Assembly (NCBI GenBank): GCA_022865305.1
Contig: JALHSP010000119.1
Span: 43,053-107,052 of the forward strand
Length of the DNA: 64,000 nucleotides
Source of the DNA: Bacteroidales bacterium
Lineage (GTDB): Bacteria > Bacteroidota > Bacteroidia > Bacteroidales > VadinHA17
Direction of reading: 5' to 3'
Both the position numbers and the translations under genes were made by a program. Every line of letters starts with the position of its first letter. Position 1 is the first letter of the stretch. The notes beneath the pieces were generated by a model. That model was not told the DNA's origin. It did no database searches and worked only from the letters and a program-made list of their open reading frames with translations. Of the stretch, positions 52,296 through 62,780 are shown one piece after another.

Positions 52296-52369
52296 GGGCC
52301 CATAGCTCAGATGGTTAGAGCACCTGACTCATAATCAGGGGGTCGCTGGTTCGATCCCAGCTGGGCCCA
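52296..52369 (+). tRNA. tRNA-Met (CAT); element integration target
   Basis: GGGCCCATAGCTCAGATGGTTAGAGCACCTGACTCATAATCAGGGGGTCGCTGGTTCGATCCCAGCTGGGCCCA; loop CTCATAA. A lysidine-modified tRNA-Ile cannot be excluded. Confidence 0.93.
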
Positions 52370-52372
52370 CAT
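52357..52372 (+). repeat. attL core direct repeat
   Basis: ccagctgggcccacat, identical to 58626-58641. Confidence 0.88.
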
Positions 52373-52484
52373 CATTAGTTCACATACTCTTCTAATTCAA
52401 CATGTTAGAGGAGTTTTAATTTAATAGGGGACAATGCAGGGTACAGTTTATATCTCATTAAACCAGGTGGGGCCACAATAATCA

Positions 52485-52531
52485 AATATAAAACTCTTTA
52501 ATTAAATACTTTAAAGAGATTTTATATTTTT
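52485..52531. terminator. Long bulged hairpin, candidate bidirectional terminator between the tRNA and the cargo gene
   Basis: AATATAAAACTCTTTAA ... TTAAAGAGATTTTATATTTTT: about 16 bp with one bulged base, then a T-run. Confidence 0.55.
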
Positions 52532-52666
52532 AGAGGTCATATTGGGGATCGCTTTACTTAGAATAAGATATGCCCACAATTATGAACGTAGCATTGTCCG
52601 TGTTAGATGTTGCCTTTTATTAAAATTCTAAGCTTATTTCTATTCAACTAGATTGTCGAGGTTAGG

Positions 52667-55189
52667 TTATTTTACTTCATATTTTATCCTTCTGGTTAAA
52701 GGAATTCCCTCCTCAGTAACACCCTCGGCTGTTATATTTATTGTTGCAGGGCTGTCTGCATTATAATAATCAAGTTCAAATGATTTGTTTTTTTCGATTT
52801 TAAAATCAGGTTGCCAGAATATTGTGGATCGAACATCTGGCAGAAGAGTCTGAGATTCCTGGCTATTATATTCAGGAGAATAAAAGATCCTTGGTACATC
52901 AAAACCCGATAAAATTTTAAAAACAGAATTTGGAGACAATTCAATGGGATTTCTTTTAAATCCCTGGTAGGTTATAATGTTTATGACTCCGTTTGCTCCT
53001 CTCATTCCATATAATGGAGAAGCATTCAGAACATCAATCCTGTCGACCATTTTCATAGGCAGAGTAAGTATACTGATTAATCCCATTGTATCTACCTCAT
53101 AACCATCTAATAAAATTAATGCACCATGGGCTTTTGGTTTCTTTTCCTCAGAGAACTGATAAGAGAACTGATTGCGAATGTAAATCTCCACGTCATCCGG
53201 ATAATAGATGCTCCTGGGATTTATTCCCCTTTTTACCATTACTCCTGGGATCCTTCCGGATATAAAACTAAAAACATCTCCACCATAATTTTCCATAGCT
53301 GGGGTTACTAGTAGTTCTTTATCAGGAGTCGCGTAAAATCTGCGGCTTTCTTTTACCCTCAATTCCTGGGGAGTCTCTGCTCTCTTTGCTATAATTGATA
53401 CTTCACCCAGATTTATGGTATCACTTAATTTATATTTCTTCAAATTATTAATCCTTATGATAGCCTCCTGTTGAAAAACCTTAAGATTTTTTGAAATAAG
53501 AGTAAATTCAATTGTATCTGGTTTGATATATTCTATATCCGGCGGGTTATACTGTATTGAATCGACAAAAATCCTTCCTGACATTTTTTCTAAATTATTT
53601 GTAGATGAAATAAATGCCTTTGTATTCCCATAAATATCAAGCTCATCGAATATGTACGATCCTTTCTTATCTGTTTTTGTATCCAGAAACATGGAAGAAT
53701 TATACGAAAAAAGCCCAAGGTTTATCTTTGCCCCCTCTACAGGCTTATTATTTAACATCCTTTTCACATTACCTGAAATGCGAAAACCAATCTCATGCTT
53801 AAATGATGTTATCGAATCATATTTCCATTTAAAATCTCTCCATCCCTGCGTCATAAGAAGAAGATCAAGTTTCTGAAGTCTTTTTTTATTCTCGGGATCA
53901 AAATAGTACGATGGTTGTTCAATGGGTCCGTGCACATCCGATTCAAGAAGGAACCATGAAGCAATGGAAACCTGGAATGGTGAAGAATTATCCGTAAACT
54001 GTGACTCTGCAGCTGAAAACGAAAAGTCGCCAGTGCCGGAAAATGATGAATCACCTGATAATGATAAAAACACAGAAATTTTTTCCCTCGGTTTGTACTC
54101 TGCTTTATCTGTGATTACATTTATCCTGGTATCATCATTTCTTTGAAGGAAAAAGAGTCTTTCGGCAAGGGGCAATCCTTCAAATTCGGATAATGTAACC
54201 CTGATAATTCCGTCTGGCAGACTATCAAGGGGTACAAGATAATTGTTGACCAGTGAATCCAGTTTAATTTTTACCTTTTGGCTGACCAGGTTCCGTGAAG
54301 AGAGATTGACGGTAAATTCGTGATTTATAACTGATGGTAATGTAATTTCATTAGTACTAACTGTAAGTATCAGATTTTTATCGGGAGTTACAAAGGTCCG
54401 GATGACTACTCCTGCAGGGAAACTCGATGGCAGCTGAGCTTTTATTTCAGTCCCGTCTTTGCTCCTGACTTTTGTATAATATGTATATCCGGGAACGGGT
54501 TTAATATTGAAAAAGCCCATTCCCAGGTGAGTGCTGTTAAAAATCGTTATAAGTTCACCTGCTGAGGAGTATAATTCAATTGTGACATCAGATCCTTTAC
54601 CAAGGGCATTTACAGCTTTGAAAGCGACTGTTGAAGTGACATTATCAATCAGTGAGCCTCCCTCGGGGAAGAAACTGATTTCGATTTTATTCTGGATTTT
54701 TTGTTTGACTCTGTTCAATCCTCCACCATCATCATATGGATTTATTACTGTTATCTTTTTAAGAGAAAAGAAATGGTCATCATAATTCCGCATATGGTTA
54801 GTATATGCCCTTATCCTGTAAATTCCCGAGGGAATTGAATCAGCCAGGTTGAAATCACCATTTCCCAGGCCATTTGATATTCGGATTGTTCTGCTCTGAA
54901 CGATTTTTGAGTCAGGTGTTAATAGCTCAACATGAAGATTATTGGTATTAACAGAAAGTCTGTTTGTTGAAGGATCAACGGCATAAGCTTTGAACCAGAT
55001 GTCATCGCCTGAGGAATAGCTACTGCGGTCAATATGCAGGTAAACCTTCTCAGCTAATTGTTTTGTGACATCTTTATTAAAATCCTGCGTAGTATTGTTC
55101 GACCTGCTATTTGAGGTACTGAAAAGTGTTAATATCATTCCCAGAGCAAAAGAAATAAGGTTCATTGACGAATGTATTATAGTTTTCAT
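52667..55189 (-). CDS. Secreted macroglobulin (MG2)-like / TonB-plug-like surface protein, cargo of the element
   Basis: AEKVYLHIDRSSYSSGDDIWFKAYAVD...SIPSGIYRIRAYTNHMRNYDDHFFSLKKITVINP; later plug-like SFISGRIPGVMVKRG...ILLDGYEVD...VDRIDVLNASPLYGMRGANGVINIITYQG. Confidence 0.8.
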   Translation of the reverse strand: MKTIIHSSMNLISFALGMILTLFSTSNSRSNNTTQDFNKDVTKQLAEKVYLHIDRSSYSSGDDIWFKAYAVDPSTNRLSVNTNNLHVELLTPDSKIVQSRTIRISNGLGNGDFNLADSIPSGIYRIRAYTNHMRNYDDHFFSLKKITVINPYDDGGGLNRVKQKIQNKIEISFFPEGGSLIDNVTSTVAFKAVNALGKGSDVTIELYSSAGELITIFNSTHLGMGFFNIKPVPGYTYYTKVRSKDGTEIKAQLPSSFPAGVVIRTFVTPDKNLILTVSTNEITLPSVINHEFTVNLSSRNLVSQKVKIKLDSLVNNYLVPLDSLPDGIIRVTLSEFEGLPLAERLFFLQRNDDTRINVITDKAEYKPREKISVFLSLSGDSSFSGTGDFSFSAAESQFTDNSSPFQVSIASWFLLESDVHGPIEQPSYYFDPENKKRLQKLDLLLMTQGWRDFKWKYDSITSFKHEIGFRISGNVKRMLNNKPVEGAKINLGLFSYNSSMFLDTKTDKKGSYIFDELDIYGNTKAFISSTNNLEKMSGRIFVDSIQYNPPDIEYIKPDTIEFTLISKNLKVFQQEAIIRINNLKKYKLSDTINLGEVSIIAKRAETPQELRVKESRRFYATPDKELLVTPAMENYGGDVFSFISGRIPGVMVKRGINPRSIYYPDDVEIYIRNQFSYQFSEEKKPKAHGALILLDGYEVDTMGLISILTLPMKMVDRIDVLNASPLYGMRGANGVINIITYQGFKRNPIELSPNSVFKILSGFDVPRIFYSPEYNSQESQTLLPDVRSTIFWQPDFKIEKNKSFELDYYNADSPATINITAEGVTEEGIPLTRRIKYEVK

Positions 55190-55402
55190 TAAACAAGACC
55201 CTTCTATATTTATACTCTACTTATATAGTAGTTTTTTTTGTCAGAATTTATGGTCTCTAGAATTGAGTCCAGGTAGCAGCTAACTAACTAAATAGTGTTT
55301 TATATGAGTAATAAACTTAATCATATTATACTAAATCGGGTATTTATAAGTACCTTAATTTTAATTAATATATCAAATTTACTACATTATTAGTTAATCA
55401 TA

Positions 55403-56223
55403 TTACTTTGACTTATATATCATTTCATTGATGATATCCAAATCAGAAAAAATGTTCTCTTTTGGTCTGAATTTAAATCCAGCTACTTTGTAATTGTCAT
55501 TTAAATGAACATTATATTTATCCGGACTTTCTGGAATCTGGTCAAAGTATTTATCACTTTCATATTCTTCGAAGTTTATTGTAGTAAAGATCCTTGAAAC
55601 ATCCCTTGAACAATGCCAGGGGAAATGCCTAAATTCAATATCATTCTTTGTTATATACTTCGTTAAATAACCTATTAATGACTTTCTGTTTTTATCTACT
55701 TTTTTTACATCCACGCCGTTATAGTTTTCTGTTTTAATCTCCCTAAGTACATCAACTCCTTTTTCCCTTTCAGAAGCTAAACAGGAGGCCATAAAACCAT
55801 TTACCTTCCTTATTGGCATGAAATCATTAGTTAGAAGATGAAAATGAATTGTACCGTTCTTCTGTCGTTCTGCAATCCACAAATAGGATTTTAAACCACA
55901 GTTTTTTCAAGCCGGCTGAAAGCATTACATTTCTTCCTGACTTTTGATTTATTCAGTTTATAACTTTTTTTATTCTCCTTTAATATTTTTTCATCAATCG
56001 GGAATGATTCTTTTATTGTCTTCTTTAACTCATCTCTGATCTTTTGGTTGGCCCGTCTCTTATGATCTCTCTTTATTGTGATTATTTCCCCATCTACAAG
56101 CCTTTTATTTGATGAACCACTAAACAAAGAAATTAGTTTCCGTCTGTTAAATGAAATGCTTGAATAAGAAATTTGATATGACATAATTCTGAGTTTGAAA
56201 TGTTCGTACTTAAATAAATCCAT
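55403..56223 (-). CDS. HUH-type rolling-circle replication-associated protein, split in two ORFs (56223-55891 and 55882-55403) by an apparent frameshift at 55902-55907
   Basis: HUH motif GTIHFHLL, Tyr motif SLIGYLTKYITKN. A -1 shift in A6 joins ...FSRLEK to NCGLKSYLWIAERQKNGTIHFHLL. Confidence 0.7.
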
Positions 56224-56263
56224 TATAGGTTATTATAGGTAAATTATTATAGGTTAGCTCATG

Positions 56264-56482
56264 CTATTTGATTACATAAAGAAAATCAGGAATAATATTT
56301 CCTTTGTAAAATCTCTTCAGATATTGCCTTGTCCGACGATCATATACATTGAAATATTTCCATTCGGAATGTTTCTTATCTAGGAACTCTGCAAAACCAT
56401 TCAGCTTATGAACTTTTGACCATTTTTTAGCCTCCCCTGAAGTTAAAAACACGGTAACAGAATAATCATTATTATGTCCCAT
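56264..56482 (-). CDS. Small hypothetical protein of the element
   Basis: ORF packed 3 bp from the HTH gene stop; MGHNNDYSVTVFLTSGEAKKWSKVHKLNGFAEFLDK. Confidence 0.5.
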   Translation of the reverse strand: MGHNNDYSVTVFLTSGEAKKWSKVHKLNGFAEFLDKKHSEWKYFNVYDRRTRQYLKRFYKGNIIPDFLYVIK

Positions 56483-56484
56483 AA

Positions 56485-56781
56485 TTACCCCCTTTTATAC
56501 TTAATATTTTTAACCGCTTGTATTGCCTGGTTAATCTCTTCAGCTTTGTACAAAACTCGATTTCCTATTCTATAGGATTGTACAATTCCTGACTTAGACC
56601 AATTGTTTAGAGTCGGAAGGGAAATTTTAAGTATTTCTGCAACCTCAAACCGACTTAAATAAGGAAGTTTTCTTACTGATTCTTTAGGTTCAGATTCTTT
56701 TTTGATTTTCTCGTCGAGAACTTCTCTGAAAATCTTTCTGAGATCCTCAGTATTTATTCCTTGTAAAATAATTGAATCCAT
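56485..56781 (-). CDS. Helix-turn-helix (HTH_17/excisionase-like) protein
   Basis: LPYLSRFEVAEILKISLPTLNNWSKSGIVQSYRIGNRVLYKAEEINQAI. Confidence 0.85.
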   Translation of the reverse strand: MDSIILQGINTEDLRKIFREVLDEKIKKESEPKESVRKLPYLSRFEVAEILKISLPTLNNWSKSGIVQSYRIGNRVLYKAEEINQAIQAVKNIKYKRG

Positions 56782-56850
56782 ACTTTTACTGATTATAACA
56801 TCAGCAAAAATATGTCATCCATTATGCAGTAGTATTCTGCTGTAGTACGA

Positions 56851-57207
56851 CTATTTTTTCTTCTTTATTCTATCTATATCACTTTTAACTAGTTCAACTT
56901 GATCACTAAACCCTGCTTTTTCAAAATATTTAAGAATAATACTTAAGTTTTTTATGTTTTTCCAGTAGTATAATTCAGAAATATATTGTCTCGTTGTTTC
57001 CAAATCTCTTCCAATGATAGGTGCATAAATCTCTGCTCTTTTTATATTGCTCCTCGCATGTTTCCCTATACCTAAATAATCTAATATAAGCATTTGAACT
57101 ACATGCGATAATTGCTCTTTCTTTTCCCTTTTATGCCCTTCTAGTTCTTCAATTCTTTTTTCAAGAGTTAAAATCCTCAATTTGCTTCCATGTGTAATTG
57201 ATTGCAT
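56851..57207 (-). CDS. Hypothetical coiled-coil protein of the element
   Basis: ORF next to the integrase gene, same strand; LRILTLEKRIEELEGHKREKKEQLSHVVQML. Confidence 0.55.
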   Translation of the reverse strand: MQSITHGSKLRILTLEKRIEELEGHKREKKEQLSHVVQMLILDYLGIGKHARSNIKRAEIYAPIIGRDLETTRQYISELYYWKNIKNLSIILKYFEKAGFSDQVELVKSDIDRIKKKK

Positions 57208-57216
57208 AATCTTTCT

Positions 57217-58443
57217 TTATTTAAAAAAAGGATGGTTTAATAAATTATCAGCGTTCTCTTCCTGGGAAATACTAATATATCTTAAAAAACTTTTCTCTGT
57301 CCGGTGTCCTGTTATTTTCATAATTGTTATTGATGGTATTCCGGCCAAATATAAATTAGTTGCAAAACTTCTTCTGGCAGTATGTGTACAGATTAAGCTT
57401 GATTTCTTAACTGTGTTCTTGACCAATTTACCCCCCTTTGTTATCGAAACTTCAACTAAATCATTGATTTTTGCTAAGGTCCCTAAATGTTTAAGATTAA
57501 GGTTCATTTTTGGATTTGATAATGCTTGCGGTATTTCACCATTATACTTGCTTATTATCTCTCTGACATATCTATGAAGAGGAATAATAACTATTTCATT
57601 AGTCTTGCTTGTCCTCATCTTTATCTTATTCCCGTCAATAATATTTTCCTTCTTCAGTTCTGAGAAATCCGAGAATCTTAATCCTGTAAAACATCCTATA
57701 ATAAACAGATCCCTTACACCTTCTAGTTGTTTGTCCTTCTTCAGATCCAGATTGTATATTCTCCCTAATTCTTCAACACTCAGGTATATTTTATCCGGCT
57801 CTTCAACCGGCCTTTTGAACTTTCTTTTTTTATACTCAATAGTCTTGTTAATACCTCTATCAGTAGCTTCATTTAAGAACGTCTTTAATATCTTAATATG
57901 TTTCCCGATTGTATTTTGCGAATAGTTCGCCTTAGTCAAATAAGATACAAATGAATTATAAAACTCCAGGTCAATATCCTCGAATGAAAAATTCCTCTTT
58001 ATTGAAGTGCGAAAATCTTTCAATTTTCCCAAGGTCGTATTATATGCTTTAATTGTCCCTTTTGCCTTTAGTGACTTGCTATCTTCAACGTACTTATCAA
58101 TGAAAGAGAACAAATCATCCTTTTTACTATCTGCGAATCTTATTGTCTTATCAAGTTCCTTTTTTAATAATTCATTCGTCGGTTCCAACCCATCATTTAA
58201 TAATCTTCGGTAGGCAGTGTTTCCTTTTGATTCTAGGGACTTTAACCTTACATTGAACTCTGGGTATTCTGGAAACTTTTTTGTCTCCTTTGCCCTCTGA
58301 TTTTCGAAATTCCAGTAATCAGGATTAATCTTTTCACCCGTTGAATACTTAAGTCTTTTATTATTATAGCTTAAAAACAGATAAATAAGCGATTCACCCT
58401 TAACTTTTTTTGGTTCTTTCAGAAAGAAATTTACCTCTGCCAT
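57217..58443 (-). CDS. Tyrosine recombinase / integrase (Bacteroidetes type)
   Basis: GCFTGLRFSDFSELKKENI (Arg I), CTHTARRSFATNLYLAGIPSITIMKITGHRTEKSFLRYISISQEE (HxxR, H, Tyr). Confidence 0.95.
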   Translation of the reverse strand: MAEVNFFLKEPKKVKGESLIYLFLSYNNKRLKYSTGEKINPDYWNFENQRAKETKKFPEYPEFNVRLKSLESKGNTAYRRLLNDGLEPTNELLKKELDKTIRFADSKKDDLFSFIDKYVEDSKSLKAKGTIKAYNTTLGKLKDFRTSIKRNFSFEDIDLEFYNSFVSYLTKANYSQNTIGKHIKILKTFLNEATDRGINKTIEYKKRKFKRPVEEPDKIYLSVEELGRIYNLDLKKDKQLEGVRDLFIIGCFTGLRFSDFSELKKENIIDGNKIKMRTSKTNEIVIIPLHRYVREIISKYNGEIPQALSNPKMNLNLKHLGTLAKINDLVEVSITKGGKLVKNTVKKSSLICTHTARRSFATNLYLAGIPSITIMKITGHRTEKSFLRYISISQEENADNLLNHPFFK

Positions 58444-58625
58444 ATTTTATTTATTTTAGTCTTTCAAAGATAATAAAATATTATCAGGGGACTGTACAGG
58501 GGACAGAATTATTTAATTTGATTATTTTTCTTGATTTTTGATTATCTTTGTAAACTGCCATTAATTGACTGTTATAGAGAATAATTAAGTATAATCGAGT
58601 AAAACTAAGAATAAAAAAGAGTAGT

Positions 58626-58641
58626 CCAGCTGGGCCCACAT
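58626..58641 (+). repeat. attR core direct repeat
   Basis: ccagctgggcccacat, identical to the tRNA-Met 3' end copy. Confidence 0.88.
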
Positions 58642-58650
58642 GAAAATCAA

Positions 58651-58682
58651 ACACTTACAACTCCAAATTGTAGGTGTTTTTT
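58651..58682 (+). terminator. Intrinsic terminator just right of attR, probably the original tRNA-Met terminator
   Basis: ACACTTACAA-CTCCAAA-TTGTAGGTGT-TTTTT hairpin. Confidence 0.6.
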
Positions 58683-58683
58683 A

Positions 58684-58705
58684 TTTGGTGCCAGTTTGGT
58701 GCCAG
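58684..58705. repeat. Tandem 11-mer TTTGGTGCCAG x2
   Basis: Seen directly; 11-bp spacing like the GGGGAC pairs at the element ends. Confidence 0.7.
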
Positions 58706-59112
58706 GTTTTGGATGAAAATTAACTGTTTCTATTATAGATTCTCTTCCTTTCAAGTTACAGGAAGACAGCATCACACATGTTTAACAGTTCTGAATAATA
58801 ATTAGAAGAGTTCAGGTCACAACCTAATTAGGGCAATTAGACTATCCCACTCATACAAAATCAGCTGCATAAGTGGTTTCGTTTGTCTCTTTATTTGGTG
58901 ACATTGCAATTCCAAATGAGAATCATAGAGTACTTGTTATAAATAACAATGAAACGGAATTAAAATAATGTAGAATTTGTGATCATACTCTTAATAACTT
59001 TAAGCCCTTGTTTAAAAGACAATGAATTGCATAAAGTATTATTTTAGAGATTATTTATCTTTGTATAAGATTGGTCATTATTAATTATTTGAACTATTCA
59101 TAAATTATAACG

Positions 59113-59727
59113 ATGGAAAAAAAGTTTTGCACTAACGAAATGTTTGATACTATCCTTTATGAATCAGAACATTTCAAAGTAGTTCCATCTCTAGGATCAT
59201 TAATTGAGGGATGGGTATTGATTACACCCAAAAAGGAAGCATTAAATTTCAGCATGCTTTATGAAGATATATACTCTGAGTTGGAGTTGGTAATTTCTGA
59301 AATAAGGAATATCCAACATTCACTTTATGGGAATTCCATATTATTTGAGCATGGTCCAATGAAGAATGCCAGCAAAACAGGATGTGGAGTAGATTATGCT
59401 CATTTACATTTGGTGCCAACAAGATTAGATCTTATCTCTGGAATTCAAAAATTCTTACATGTTGATTTCAAATGGCAAGAAATAGTAGGTATTTCTGAAA
59501 TCAATAGTATTAATAGGGATTTGCAAGATTACCTCTATTATCGAACACTTGATAATCGCCATTTTTGTACGTTCAATCAAGAATTTCCAAGTCAAATTTT
59601 TCGTCAAGTTATTGCCTATTCTCTAGGATTTCCTGAGAGGTATAACTGGAAAGAATATCCAGAATTAGCTGTTATTAATAAAACAATTCAAGATTTCGCA
59701 TCAATCAAAGTTTGCCATGAGCAATGA
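59113..59727 (+). CDS. HIT-like (histidine-triad superfamily) protein
   Basis: GWVLITPKKEALNFSML...ILFEHGP...VDYAHLHLVPTRLDL: HIT-like core with YAHLHLV in place of HxHxHxx. Confidence 0.7.
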   Translation: MEKKFCTNEMFDTILYESEHFKVVPSLGSLIEGWVLITPKKEALNFSMLYEDIYSELELVISEIRNIQHSLYGNSILFEHGPMKNASKTGCGVDYAHLHLVPTRLDLISGIQKFLHVDFKWQEIVGISEINSINRDLQDYLYYRTLDNRHFCTFNQEFPSQIFRQVIAYSLGFPERYNWKEYPELAVINKTIQDFASIKVCHEQ

Positions 59728-60295
59728 ATCAGGAAACAGTCCAGGTTTTGCACCATCTTACCCAACAGACGGTAGGGATATTGGAAATTGGAAAACTCGT
59801 TATCCAAAGGAAGCACAAAAAACAATTATCCTTGAAGCTATATACTTAGGATTAATACTTCTTCTTGTTCCTTGTTTTCTTTTATTATTTATTCTTTTAA
59901 AAGATCAACAGTTCTTTAATAACCAAATTATAAGAAAATACTCCTTCGCTTGGCTTGGTGGGACATTTGGGGGAGTTTTATTCTCATTAAAATGGTTATA
60001 TCATTCTATAGCTAAGAATATTTGGAATGAGGATAGACGATTATGGAGGTTATTTACTCCTCATCTCTCTGGCGGTTTTTCTTTTGCCATGGTTGTCCTT
60101 ATTTCATCAAATTTGATTAATGTTTTTAATCCTGAAGCCTTAAATAGATTAGGGACGATTTTTGGTATTGGTTTTTTGACTGGGTATTTTTCTGATTATG
60201 CAATTGGTAAATTTACTGATGTAGCTAAATCATTGTTTGGTACAAATCAGAAACAAGATTCTCTAACAGGGAATCAAAAAGATTCAAATGCCTGA
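59717..60295 (+). CDS. Hypothetical four-TM membrane protein
   Basis: Hydrophobic segments LEAIYLGLILLLVPCFLLLFILL, FAWLGGTFGGVLFSL, GGFSFAMVVLISSNLI, GTIFGIGFLTGYFSDYAIG; overlaps both neighbours. Confidence 0.7.
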   Translation: MSNESGNSPGFAPSYPTDGRDIGNWKTRYPKEAQKTIILEAIYLGLILLLVPCFLLLFILLKDQQFFNNQIIRKYSFAWLGGTFGGVLFSLKWLYHSIAKNIWNEDRRLWRLFTPHLSGGFSFAMVVLISSNLINVFNPEALNRLGTIFGIGFLTGYFSDYAIGKFTDVAKSLFGTNQKQDSLTGNQKDSNA

Positions 60296-62780
60296 ACTTA
60301 ATAAATATATTTTATTTAGTCAGGATTTTATACATGCCTCCCTCGAAAATTCTGGAGTTAAAGCATATAACCTTATTAAATATGGCTTAAACACCCCTGA
60401 TTTTTTAATTATCACGAATGAACTTTATTCACTGTGGTTAGAAAAAGAAGAATCTATAAGTGAATCAGAATCATTCCTACGAACAATAATCTCATATTTT
60501 GTAAACCGAGGCATTAATTCAATCATTGTCAGATCTAGTGCTGTTAATGAACAATTTGGAGAACGAGGCTTATTTGTGAGTGAGATTTGTAAGCCCCGAA
60601 ATAACTTGTTACTTCAAGTAATAATAAAAATCTATGAGGATTTTAAAAAGAAGTGCAATACTAATAAAATTGCCCTATTAATTCAGGAATACAAAGAGCC
60701 CATTGTAATAGGACATTTATCAAATGAAAGAAGGGTAACACCAAAAAAGGAGAATTGGTTTGTAGAAAAGGAGATACGTTCAGAAAAAGAAATATCACTA
60801 ACAAAATTTAGGACTTCAGGTAATGAAAAAAAGGGATTGGATTATTCTATATATTCCTGCTTAAATATTAAATCGTTGAATTATAGCCTTGAATCAATTG
60901 CCTCCTTTTTTTGTAGAGAAGATTATAGATTTCATATTGAATGGTTATGGGACGGAAAGGTGTTCTGGATTTTGCAGATTGATGAGGAAATTAATAAGAA
61001 TCAAGGTATAAAACCAGGTAGTGAATGGATCAAAGGAAGATGGAACCAAAGTAAAAATCCTTTTACTGATCTAAAAGGACTTGAAGTATTTGAAACAATT
61101 GAAACTTCACGGAAAAACTGGCCTAAAATATCATGCATCAAGTCATTTCGTGAATTAGAACTACCTTTTTGGCAAATTTTTATTCTGGAAAATGAGAGTA
61201 TTATTGAAAGCTTATTTGCTGGCCACCCTGACCTTTCCTTAATATCAGATTTAAAAAATCTATTGACCTCACCAATTGTAATTAGAAGCGATGTAAGAGA
61301 TAATCAAGAATTGTTGCTAGCGAGAACTGATACAATATTTAACTTAGACAGTGCATTAGAGTTTTTAATAAGCGAATCACAAAGATTTATTAACGGAGGA
61401 TTAAGGTCAGACCAATTCTGCTTTCTGATACATAAGTTTATTGTTTCTGTGGCTGGAGCCCTAGCCTATGCAAAACCTAACCTGGAAAGGGTTAGAATAG
61501 ATTCAACATGGGGAATTGTAGACGGCCTGTATTTTTATCCTCATGATTCTTATGAAGTTGATATAAGAGCAGAAAAAATCGCAAAGAAACTCAGATGTAA
61601 GCATAAGTATGTTGACTTTGATGAGAACGGGACATGGTATGCAAAAGAGGCAGGTATTAATTTTGATTGGAGACAATCTATAACGGACTATCAAATTTCA
61701 CAAATAGCAACCATGACTCAATCGATAGTTGATAAGCTTGAGAAACCTACGACTGTAATGTTTTTCATCAATAAGAGAAAAGGGTTGCCAGAAGTATTAC
61801 CTTGGTTTTATTCTATTGATGAAATATATGATTCTAAAACTGATTATACTGACATAATCTTTTCAGAGAAAAAAATAATTATTAACTCAAAAGATGACTT
61901 TTATAGATATAAAGATCTTGATTTCAGTCAACACAAAAAGAATAAATTAAAACTATGCTTGGACGTTGACCTTTTAAGAGATAAGGATTTTATTGAAGAA
62001 ATCGCAGATTTTGCAAAAGAAAATGACTTTGTAGTTGATATGGAAGGGAGCATTCTGTCGCATCCTTATTATGTTCTAAGATCAAAAGGTGTAGTTGTCC
62101 GATGTTTCAATCCTCTTGATATAAGTCCCTCCACCAAAGAGTTTTATAAACTTGTGAGAGATCAAATTCCAATCAAAATCGAAAGCCAAAATGAGACTGT
62201 TATTAGCACCAAGGTGTTACCTGGTGAGCTTCTCAACTATTTGAAAGAAAAGGCAATAGAAGAGGCTTTTGAATTGTACTGGAGTAGAGATAACGATAAT
62301 ACTATTGAGGAACTTTCGGATTTATTTGAAGTCATTATTGGCGTGTGTAAAGCCTTTGGAATCGAATTAAAGGAAATTGAAAAGATTGCTGAAAAGAAAA
62401 GGCAGAAAAGAGGTGGATTTAATGAGGGAGTATATCTTATTGCTACAAAAGAAAACTCTCTATTTCAGCTTACAAAACCTGAACAAAAACTCTTTTCTGA
62501 AAGCAGTGAAAAACAGAAAATAAATGTCCCAATAAAACCTGTCATTAAATTTTTTCAAAAAGGTCAAATTCGAAATTTAAAATCGCTTTCAAAAGTTGAT
62601 AAATTCGAATTATCATATATCAATAACTACAATTCATTATCAAATAAATTTAAGTACCTGTTAAAAGATGAGAATTATAATGGCATCACTATTGAATATA
62701 AAGAAAAGTGCATCAAGATATCATTAGAAAAAATCGACTTCTCTCCTGAAAAAGGTCAGATGGATTTATTTAAGGAATAG
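60288..62780 (+). CDS. PPDK/PEP-synthase N-terminal (ATP-grasp)-like protein with swivel-like SH motif and C-terminal MazG-like domain
   Basis: GVKAYNLIKYGLNTPDFLIIT, IIVRSSAVNEQFGERGLFVS, VRIDSTWGIVDGLYFYP; GSILSHPYYVLRSKGVVV; FYKLVRDQIPIKIE...EKAIEEAFEL...EELSDLFEVIIGVCKAFGI...KRGGF. Confidence 0.72.
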   Translation: MPELNKYILFSQDFIHASLENSGVKAYNLIKYGLNTPDFLIITNELYSLWLEKEESISESESFLRTIISYFVNRGINSIIVRSSAVNEQFGERGLFVSEICKPRNNLLLQVIIKIYEDFKKKCNTNKIALLIQEYKEPIVIGHLSNERRVTPKKENWFVEKEIRSEKEISLTKFRTSGNEKKGLDYSIYSCLNIKSLNYSLESIASFFCREDYRFHIEWLWDGKVFWILQIDEEINKNQGIKPGSEWIKGRWNQSKNPFTDLKGLEVFETIETSRKNWPKISCIKSFRELELPFWQIFILENESIIESLFAGHPDLSLISDLKNLLTSPIVIRSDVRDNQELLLARTDTIFNLDSALEFLISESQRFINGGLRSDQFCFLIHKFIVSVAGALAYAKPNLERVRIDSTWGIVDGLYFYPHDSYEVDIRAEKIAKKLRCKHKYVDFDENGTWYAKEAGINFDWRQSITDYQISQIATMTQSIVDKLEKPTTVMFFINKRKGLPEVLPWFYSIDEIYDSKTDYTDIIFSEKKIIINSKDDFYRYKDLDFSQHKKNKLKLCLDVDLLRDKDFIEEIADFAKENDFVVDMEGSILSHPYYVLRSKGVVVRCFNPLDISPSTKEFYKLVRDQIPIKIESQNETVISTKVLPGELLNYLKEKAIEEAFELYWSRDNDNTIEELSDLFEVIIGVCKAFGIELKEIEKIAEKKRQKRGGFNEGVYLIATKENSLFQLTKPEQKLFSESSEKQKINVPIKPVIKFFQKGQIRNLKSLSKVDKFELSYINNYNSLSNKFKYLLKDENYNGITIEYKEKCIKISLEKIDFSPEKGQMDLFKE

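Follow-up and report, generated by a model that had tools for sequence, protein, structure and literature searches.

The DNA downstream of a tRNA-Met gene in this Bacteroidales genome raises the question of whether it is an integrative element that replicates by rolling circle after excision, as an initial annotation had proposed, and to which class such an element would belong. In the window, by which we mean the whole 64,000-nucleotide stretch of DNA that was analysed, the 16-bp sequence CCAGCTGGGCCCACAT, an exact repeat of the tRNA-Met 3' end, was found at both borders of a unit of 6,269 bp (Table 1), as the annotation had stated. The genome (4.98 Mb) contains only three copies of its first 15 bases, namely those at the two borders and one within a sister element. 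With an integrase gene and, at either border, a direct repeat of the tRNA 3' end, the unit is a tRNA-targeting integrative element. Empty sites were observed in relatives (L010, L011/L085, L013 and L016), where tRNA-Met and the shared upstream genes are followed by other DNA with no adjoining element, the flanks being short in three of them. The cargo gene, which had been predicted not to persist at this locus in relatives devoid of the integrase, was not seen beyond tRNA-Met in the available DNA of four relatives (about 10 kb in one; 0.04-0.9 kb, up to 1.9 kb, in the others), and no integrase, Rep or cargo was present among the ORFs listed in the approximately 10 kb past tRNA-Met in genome G020. 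In L010 and L016, which share the upstream genes, CCAGCTGGGCCCACATGAAAA is found directly after tRNA-Met, as at 58626-58646 of the window; the support that this lends to the right border is modest because just five bases (GAAAA) extend past the repeat. What we regard as stronger support for the borders comes from sequence comparison within the family described below, all complete members of which share one layout between repeats of their own tRNA end.

Table 1. Features of the tRNA-Met-associated unit, in window coordinates.
Feature	Position	Strand	Evidence and remarks
tRNA-Met (CAT)	52296..52370	+	Integration target; ARAGORN; upstream synteny kept in L010, L011, L013, L016
Left att core, outer, 16 bp	52357..52372	+	Identical to 58626-58641
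Left-end hairpin, then T-rich run	52384..52419	+	Probable replacement tRNA terminator; hairpin at same place in all left ends
Left arm-type pair GGGGAC-N6-GGGTAC	52427..52445	+	Same 12-bp-spaced pair in all left ends
Inner att-like copy, 13/16 match	52463..52478	+	Start of second, decayed left end
Cargo, 840-aa MG2 / TonB Plug-like protein	52667..55189	-	Pfam MG2 4.6e-10; Plug below cut-off
Rep C-terminal fragment, 159 aa	55403..55882	-	HUH motifs II and III; Pfam REP_ORF2-G2P 2.6e-7; alignment with intact Reps
Rep N-terminal fragment, 110 aa	55891..56223	-	Motif I missing at 3' side (103-bp deletion)
Candidate double-strand origin	56193..56257	-	Iterons AACCTATAATA plus invariant TGGATTTATT...TTTCAAA
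orf72, probable accessory replication protein	56264..56482	-	Adjoins Rep in every member; L076, L077 have homologues next to Rep-like genes
HTH_17 excisionase-like protein	56485..56781	-	Pfam HTH_17 6.7e-9; PHROG excisionase matches; TIGR01764 below cut-off
orf118	56851..57207	-	54% identical in L044/L045; slot variable between members
Tyrosine integrase, 408 aa, apparently intact	57217..58443	-	Pfam Phage_integrase 1.2e-11, Phage_int_SAM_5 1.4e-19
Right arm-type pair GGGGAC-N6-GGGGAC	58487..58505	+	Paired hexamers similar to those of left ends
Right att core, 16 bp	58626..58641	+	Identical to 52357-52372

Read from right to left, the unit carries the genes for the integrase, orf118, the HTH_17 protein, orf72, Rep and the 840-aa cargo protein. 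The integrase, the HTH/excisionase-like protein, the two small ORFs and the 2.5-kb cargo gene named in the initial annotation are thus all present; the Rep listed with them is not intact and is split into the 110-aa and 159-aa fragments. The integrase could be aligned end to end with those of six relatives, the C-terminal catalytic region included. No significant family match was obtained for orf118 in Pfam, PHROG and further profile searches. The annotated lack of relaxase, T4SS and capsid genes was borne out by a Pfam/PHROG scan of the ORFs, which likewise revealed no FtsK/TraB. No ORF of the element matched a MOB relaxase family (Pfam), so that it is not an IME in the canonical sense; no Pfam match to a Tra/TraB (FtsK-like) translocase was detected in the element or in the scanned cargo of its relatives, which sets it outside the AICEs; and capsid or other virion genes were lacking among its ORFs (Pfam, PHROG), which sets it outside the prophages.

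A search for this gene order in other Bacteroidetes had been suggested, and the arrangement integrase, variable gene, HTH, orf72, Rep, cargo and tRNA was found in seven other Bacteroidales genomes (L043, L044, L045, L050, L052, L053 and L072), the variable gene being missing from L052. When 62 genomes of the genus were searched for Rep, relatives turned up in five, the window genome included, and further ones were added from order-wide and GTDB scans. Most relatives come from draft metagenome assemblies; L052 and L053 belong to isolates (Sunxiuqinia elliptica CGMCC 1.9156 and Maribellus sp. CM-23, respectively), both with intact copies. Four more tRNA species serve as targets, namely tRNA-Gln (L043, L044, L045), tRNA-Arg (L050), tRNA-Phe (L052, L053) and tRNA-Asp (L072). 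Repeats of the tRNA 3' end, 13-23 bp long in the relatives, flank seven independent elements on both sides (the window element, L043, L044, L050, L052, L053 and L072), and unit lengths range from 5.57 to 6.97 kb, that of the window being 6.27 kb. In the open-licence literature that was searched, we came across no account of this family. Such a family of small integrase and HUH Rep elements with swappable cargo in Bacteroidales seems to be undescribed.

The ends of the elements are also organized alike. Each left end displays the core, a hairpin and a pair of GGGGAC-like hexamers 12 bp apart, and a similar pair is found at the right end; these pairs are probable arm-type binding sites of the integrase. 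The left-end hairpin of L072 resembles the native tRNA terminator lying on the far side of that element, and hence the element seems to supply a replacement terminator. In the window (52463-52560) and in L033, L042, L043 and L044 the left end is doubled in tandem, with about 106 bp between copies. In these tandem ends, all from members of the window's genus, the outer core corresponds to the occupied tRNA; the inner core of L033, L042, L043 and L044 is tRNA-Met-like, and those members whose target is visible occupy Phe or Gln genes. We interpret the inner left end as the remnant of a former target site.

Between Rep and the tRNA, the content of the unit differs from one element to the next, only L044 and L045 having one set in common. 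Strong matches to defence genes were obtained for the cargo of L052 (a type II methyltransferase and a restriction enzyme), L043 (AbiTii) and L044/L045 (AAA ATPase, BglII-like and Abi_alpha proteins). Weaker or ambiguous cargoes comprise a reverse transcriptase with a HEPN protein in L053, a PLD-like protein in L051 and an HD hydrolase in the sister copy on contig C121; the L053 reverse transcriptase shows a weak maturase domain below cut-off and may thus be group-II-intron-like rather than a defence enzyme. The cargo proteins of L050 and of the sister copy on contig C120 have no recognised identity. The window cargo gave no PADLOC match and was discarded as a known defence gene; it was also discarded as part of a wider copy of the element, the homologues examined having no integrase, Rep or arm pairs nearby. 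Paralogues of this cargo family lie on the host chromosome in 36 of the 62 genomes of the genus, and since the family is so common and the homologues examined stand apart from element genes, the window cargo is probably a captured host gene, apparently one for a surface protein. In some genomes the MG2/Plug family has undergone strong expansion, with as many as 15 matches; several copies have a contig end within a few hundred bases, which hints at repeated flanks. If active, the elements would constitute very small vehicles by which Bacteroidales carry anti-phage systems. New defence genes could readily be sought in the cargo slot, since the layout is fixed, and several cargoes match no known family.

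The DNA just past the right repeat (58642-58711) consists of a hairpin followed by GGTGCCAGTTTGGTGCCAGG. A similar hairpin with GCCAGG repeats is found after the right end of the tRNA-Gln relatives L043 and L044, and also downstream of tRNA-Met in L011; its recurrence past right ends at tRNA-Gln makes it a possible left end of another family of tRNA-integrating elements. Further on, a cluster of three genes (59113-62780) encodes a weakly HIT-like protein, a protein with likely membrane segments and a weakly PPDK_N/MazG-like protein, the last of which was found in only 2 of the 62 genomes of the genus; G017 has all three genes. This operon was considered as part of the element and rejected, for it lies outside the repeats and occurs elsewhere in G017 without the element.

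Intact Rep homologues of the family measure about 293-300 aa and carry the conserved motifs FYSISFP, HFH and YLxKY, corresponding to motifs I, II and III of HUH initiators, with a motif I (FYSISFP) that differs from the usual form. An intact copy matched Pfam REP_ORF2-G2P (6.4e-10), and a match of Rep to PHROG rolling-circle initiation was obtained as well (2.3e-6). No match was found among PDB sequences and no relative in IMG/VR, and comparison with public plasmids and phages yielded just partial matches of 26-30% identity, to small staphylococcal, enterococcal and macrococcal plasmids and to bajarodino viruses. Between orf72 and Rep lies a block of iterons (AACCTWTAATA) followed by TGGATTTATT...TTTCAAA, the latter two motifs being invariant across the ten elements aligned. 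Early stop codons in several elements exclude a conserved peptide at this position. The block has a single match in the window and none in 100 shuffles, and its three copies in the genome are each followed by a Rep. It is on these grounds the best candidate for the double-strand origin, and could instead be a promoter or operator.

When compared to two intact copies in the same genome, the window Rep is missing 103 bp at an A-run, by which motif I (FLAFYSISFP) is lost and the reading frame shifted; the 110-aa ORF is the Rep N-terminus and the 159-aa ORF retains motif II (HFH) and motif III (YLTKY), so that the window copy no longer holds the complete HUH motif set. The deletion is read from one assembly, in which differences unique to the window copy continue on both sides of the lesion, arguing against a chimeric assembly. 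The intact Reps are located on contigs C120 (at tRNA-Phe) and C121, whose broken ends share an identical stretch of 141 bp, and contigs C34 and C124 start with this same 141-bp right end. Such identical contig ends point to assembler breakage at near-identical copies and suggest a recent duplication; as read from the assembly, they imply at least two further near-identical copies in the genome. The integrase region of these copies is missing from the assembly. At L032 (G000:C27:11185-21557), elsewhere in the same genome, another integrase (47% identical) is accompanied, some 9 kb off, by a short fragment of Rep; the locus is perhaps a decayed larger relative.

Replication by rolling circle after excision, as initially annotated, is consequently a reasonable expectation for the family, given the Rep family and the conserved origin-like block, and does not hold for the window copy alone, which with its Rep disrupted cannot replicate in this way by itself. 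We consider it probable that the window unit is one copy of a family of integrative elements of 5.6-7.0 kb, built on an integrase and an HUH Rep. In such elements, the integrase recombines a short core identical to the tRNA 3' end, the HTH protein would probably direct excision, and the excised circle would probably be copied by the HUH Rep from the iteron block just upstream of rep, with orf72 as an accessory to Rep; the cargo, placed where Rep gives way to the tRNA end, is exchangeable and often consists of anti-phage genes. The window copy might still excise, and its replication would then need Rep in trans, for example from an intact sister copy. A possibility to which we give somewhat less than even weight is that this copy has become a fossil that lost all mobility and persists solely as host DNA, as the Rep deletion, the degenerate inner left end and the frequency of the cargo family on host chromosomes could indicate; yet the integrase, the HTH protein and orf72 remain, as do the arm pairs, the origin block and the identical cores, and the sister copies could provide Rep. 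As a natural Rep-minus mutant with intact sisters beside it, the window copy lends itself to testing whether Rep acts in trans.

The constant association of orf72 with Rep in all family members extends to two prophage-like loci, L076 and L077, which hold adjacent distant homologues of both genes as well as lysis- or structure-like genes, and which may belong to small Bacteroidetes ssDNA phages. One L077 protein is weakly similar to a structural protein of the ssDNA phage phi12:2 (22% identity, E 0.07), and the elements keep to 5.6-7.0 kb despite unrelated cargo, close to the 6.45-kb genome of phi12:2. These observations would suit a satellite of small ssDNA phages, to which the element contributes integrase, Rep, orf72 and origin while a helper phage packages the ssDNA circle. 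We nevertheless regard this as unlikely: neither a Rep relative nor a match to the 37-base origin pattern was found in IMG/VR, orf72 was sought in phi12:2 and is absent, no packaging or helper-exploiting gene was seen in the element, and a small size fits any rolling-circle replicon equally well. A shorter origin pattern retrieved 46 IMG/VR contigs, all of them without Rep, orf72 and integrase, which were dismissed as chance matches. More speculative still, and in our opinion quite improbable, is that tailless ssDNA phages of Bacteroidales have a widespread class of satellites that carry defence genes, in which integrase, Rep, orf72 and origin would make up an ssDNA-producing unit of phage-like length (5.6-7.0 kb) that would hold one interchangeable immunity slot and change its tRNA target by acquiring a new outer att end, the ancestral inner end staying in place. 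The origin-like block and the Rep-orf72 pair offer in any case a testable model of replication and a possible evolutionary link to ssDNA phages.

Rep could also double as a relaxase, so that a resident conjugative element would transfer the unit. In many streptococcal IMEs the putative relaxase is an RCR-type initiator, and 35 of 118 of these IMEs are devoid of a coupling protein (PMC5704250). The idea appears doubtful to us, as neither a coupling protein nor an oriT was identified in the element and the few Bacteroidetes IMEs are described in that review as having canonical relaxases.

We compared the family with known systems. The small Bacteroidetes ssDNA phages (candidatus Obscuriviridae and Finnlakeviridae; PMC11946311) have a rolling-circle Rep and a similar genome length, whereas the window element has an integrase and cargo and is devoid of capsid and lysis genes; phi12:2 differs further in that it lacks orf72 and has no similar Rep. 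NBU1/NBU2, Tn4555 and other Bacteroidetes IMEs are likewise small, integrated and helper-dependent, but they carry canonical MobP-type relaxases (PMC5704250), none of which was found in the window element. The AICEs of Actinobacteria (pSAM2 type) resemble the family in being small units at a tRNA 3' end that comprise a tyrosine integrase, an excisionase and a rolling-circle Rep; their related integrases can use different tRNA genes and tandem insertions occur, as in the window family. Unlike it, they carry a Tra/TraB DNA translocase (PMC3218068), which was not found here, and the window-family Rep is just distantly similar to RepSA. The nearest functional analogue is the group of streptococcal IMEs with RCR-type relaxases, in which an integrase is associated with an RCR-type initiator, often with no canonical relaxase; these differ (PMC5704250) by having other Rep families, by usually having a TcpA coupling protein and by residing in Firmicutes, and a defence slot does not figure in their description in the section consulted. 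The best reading is that the element represents a Bacteroidales variant of the known small elements that join an integrase to rolling-circle replication.
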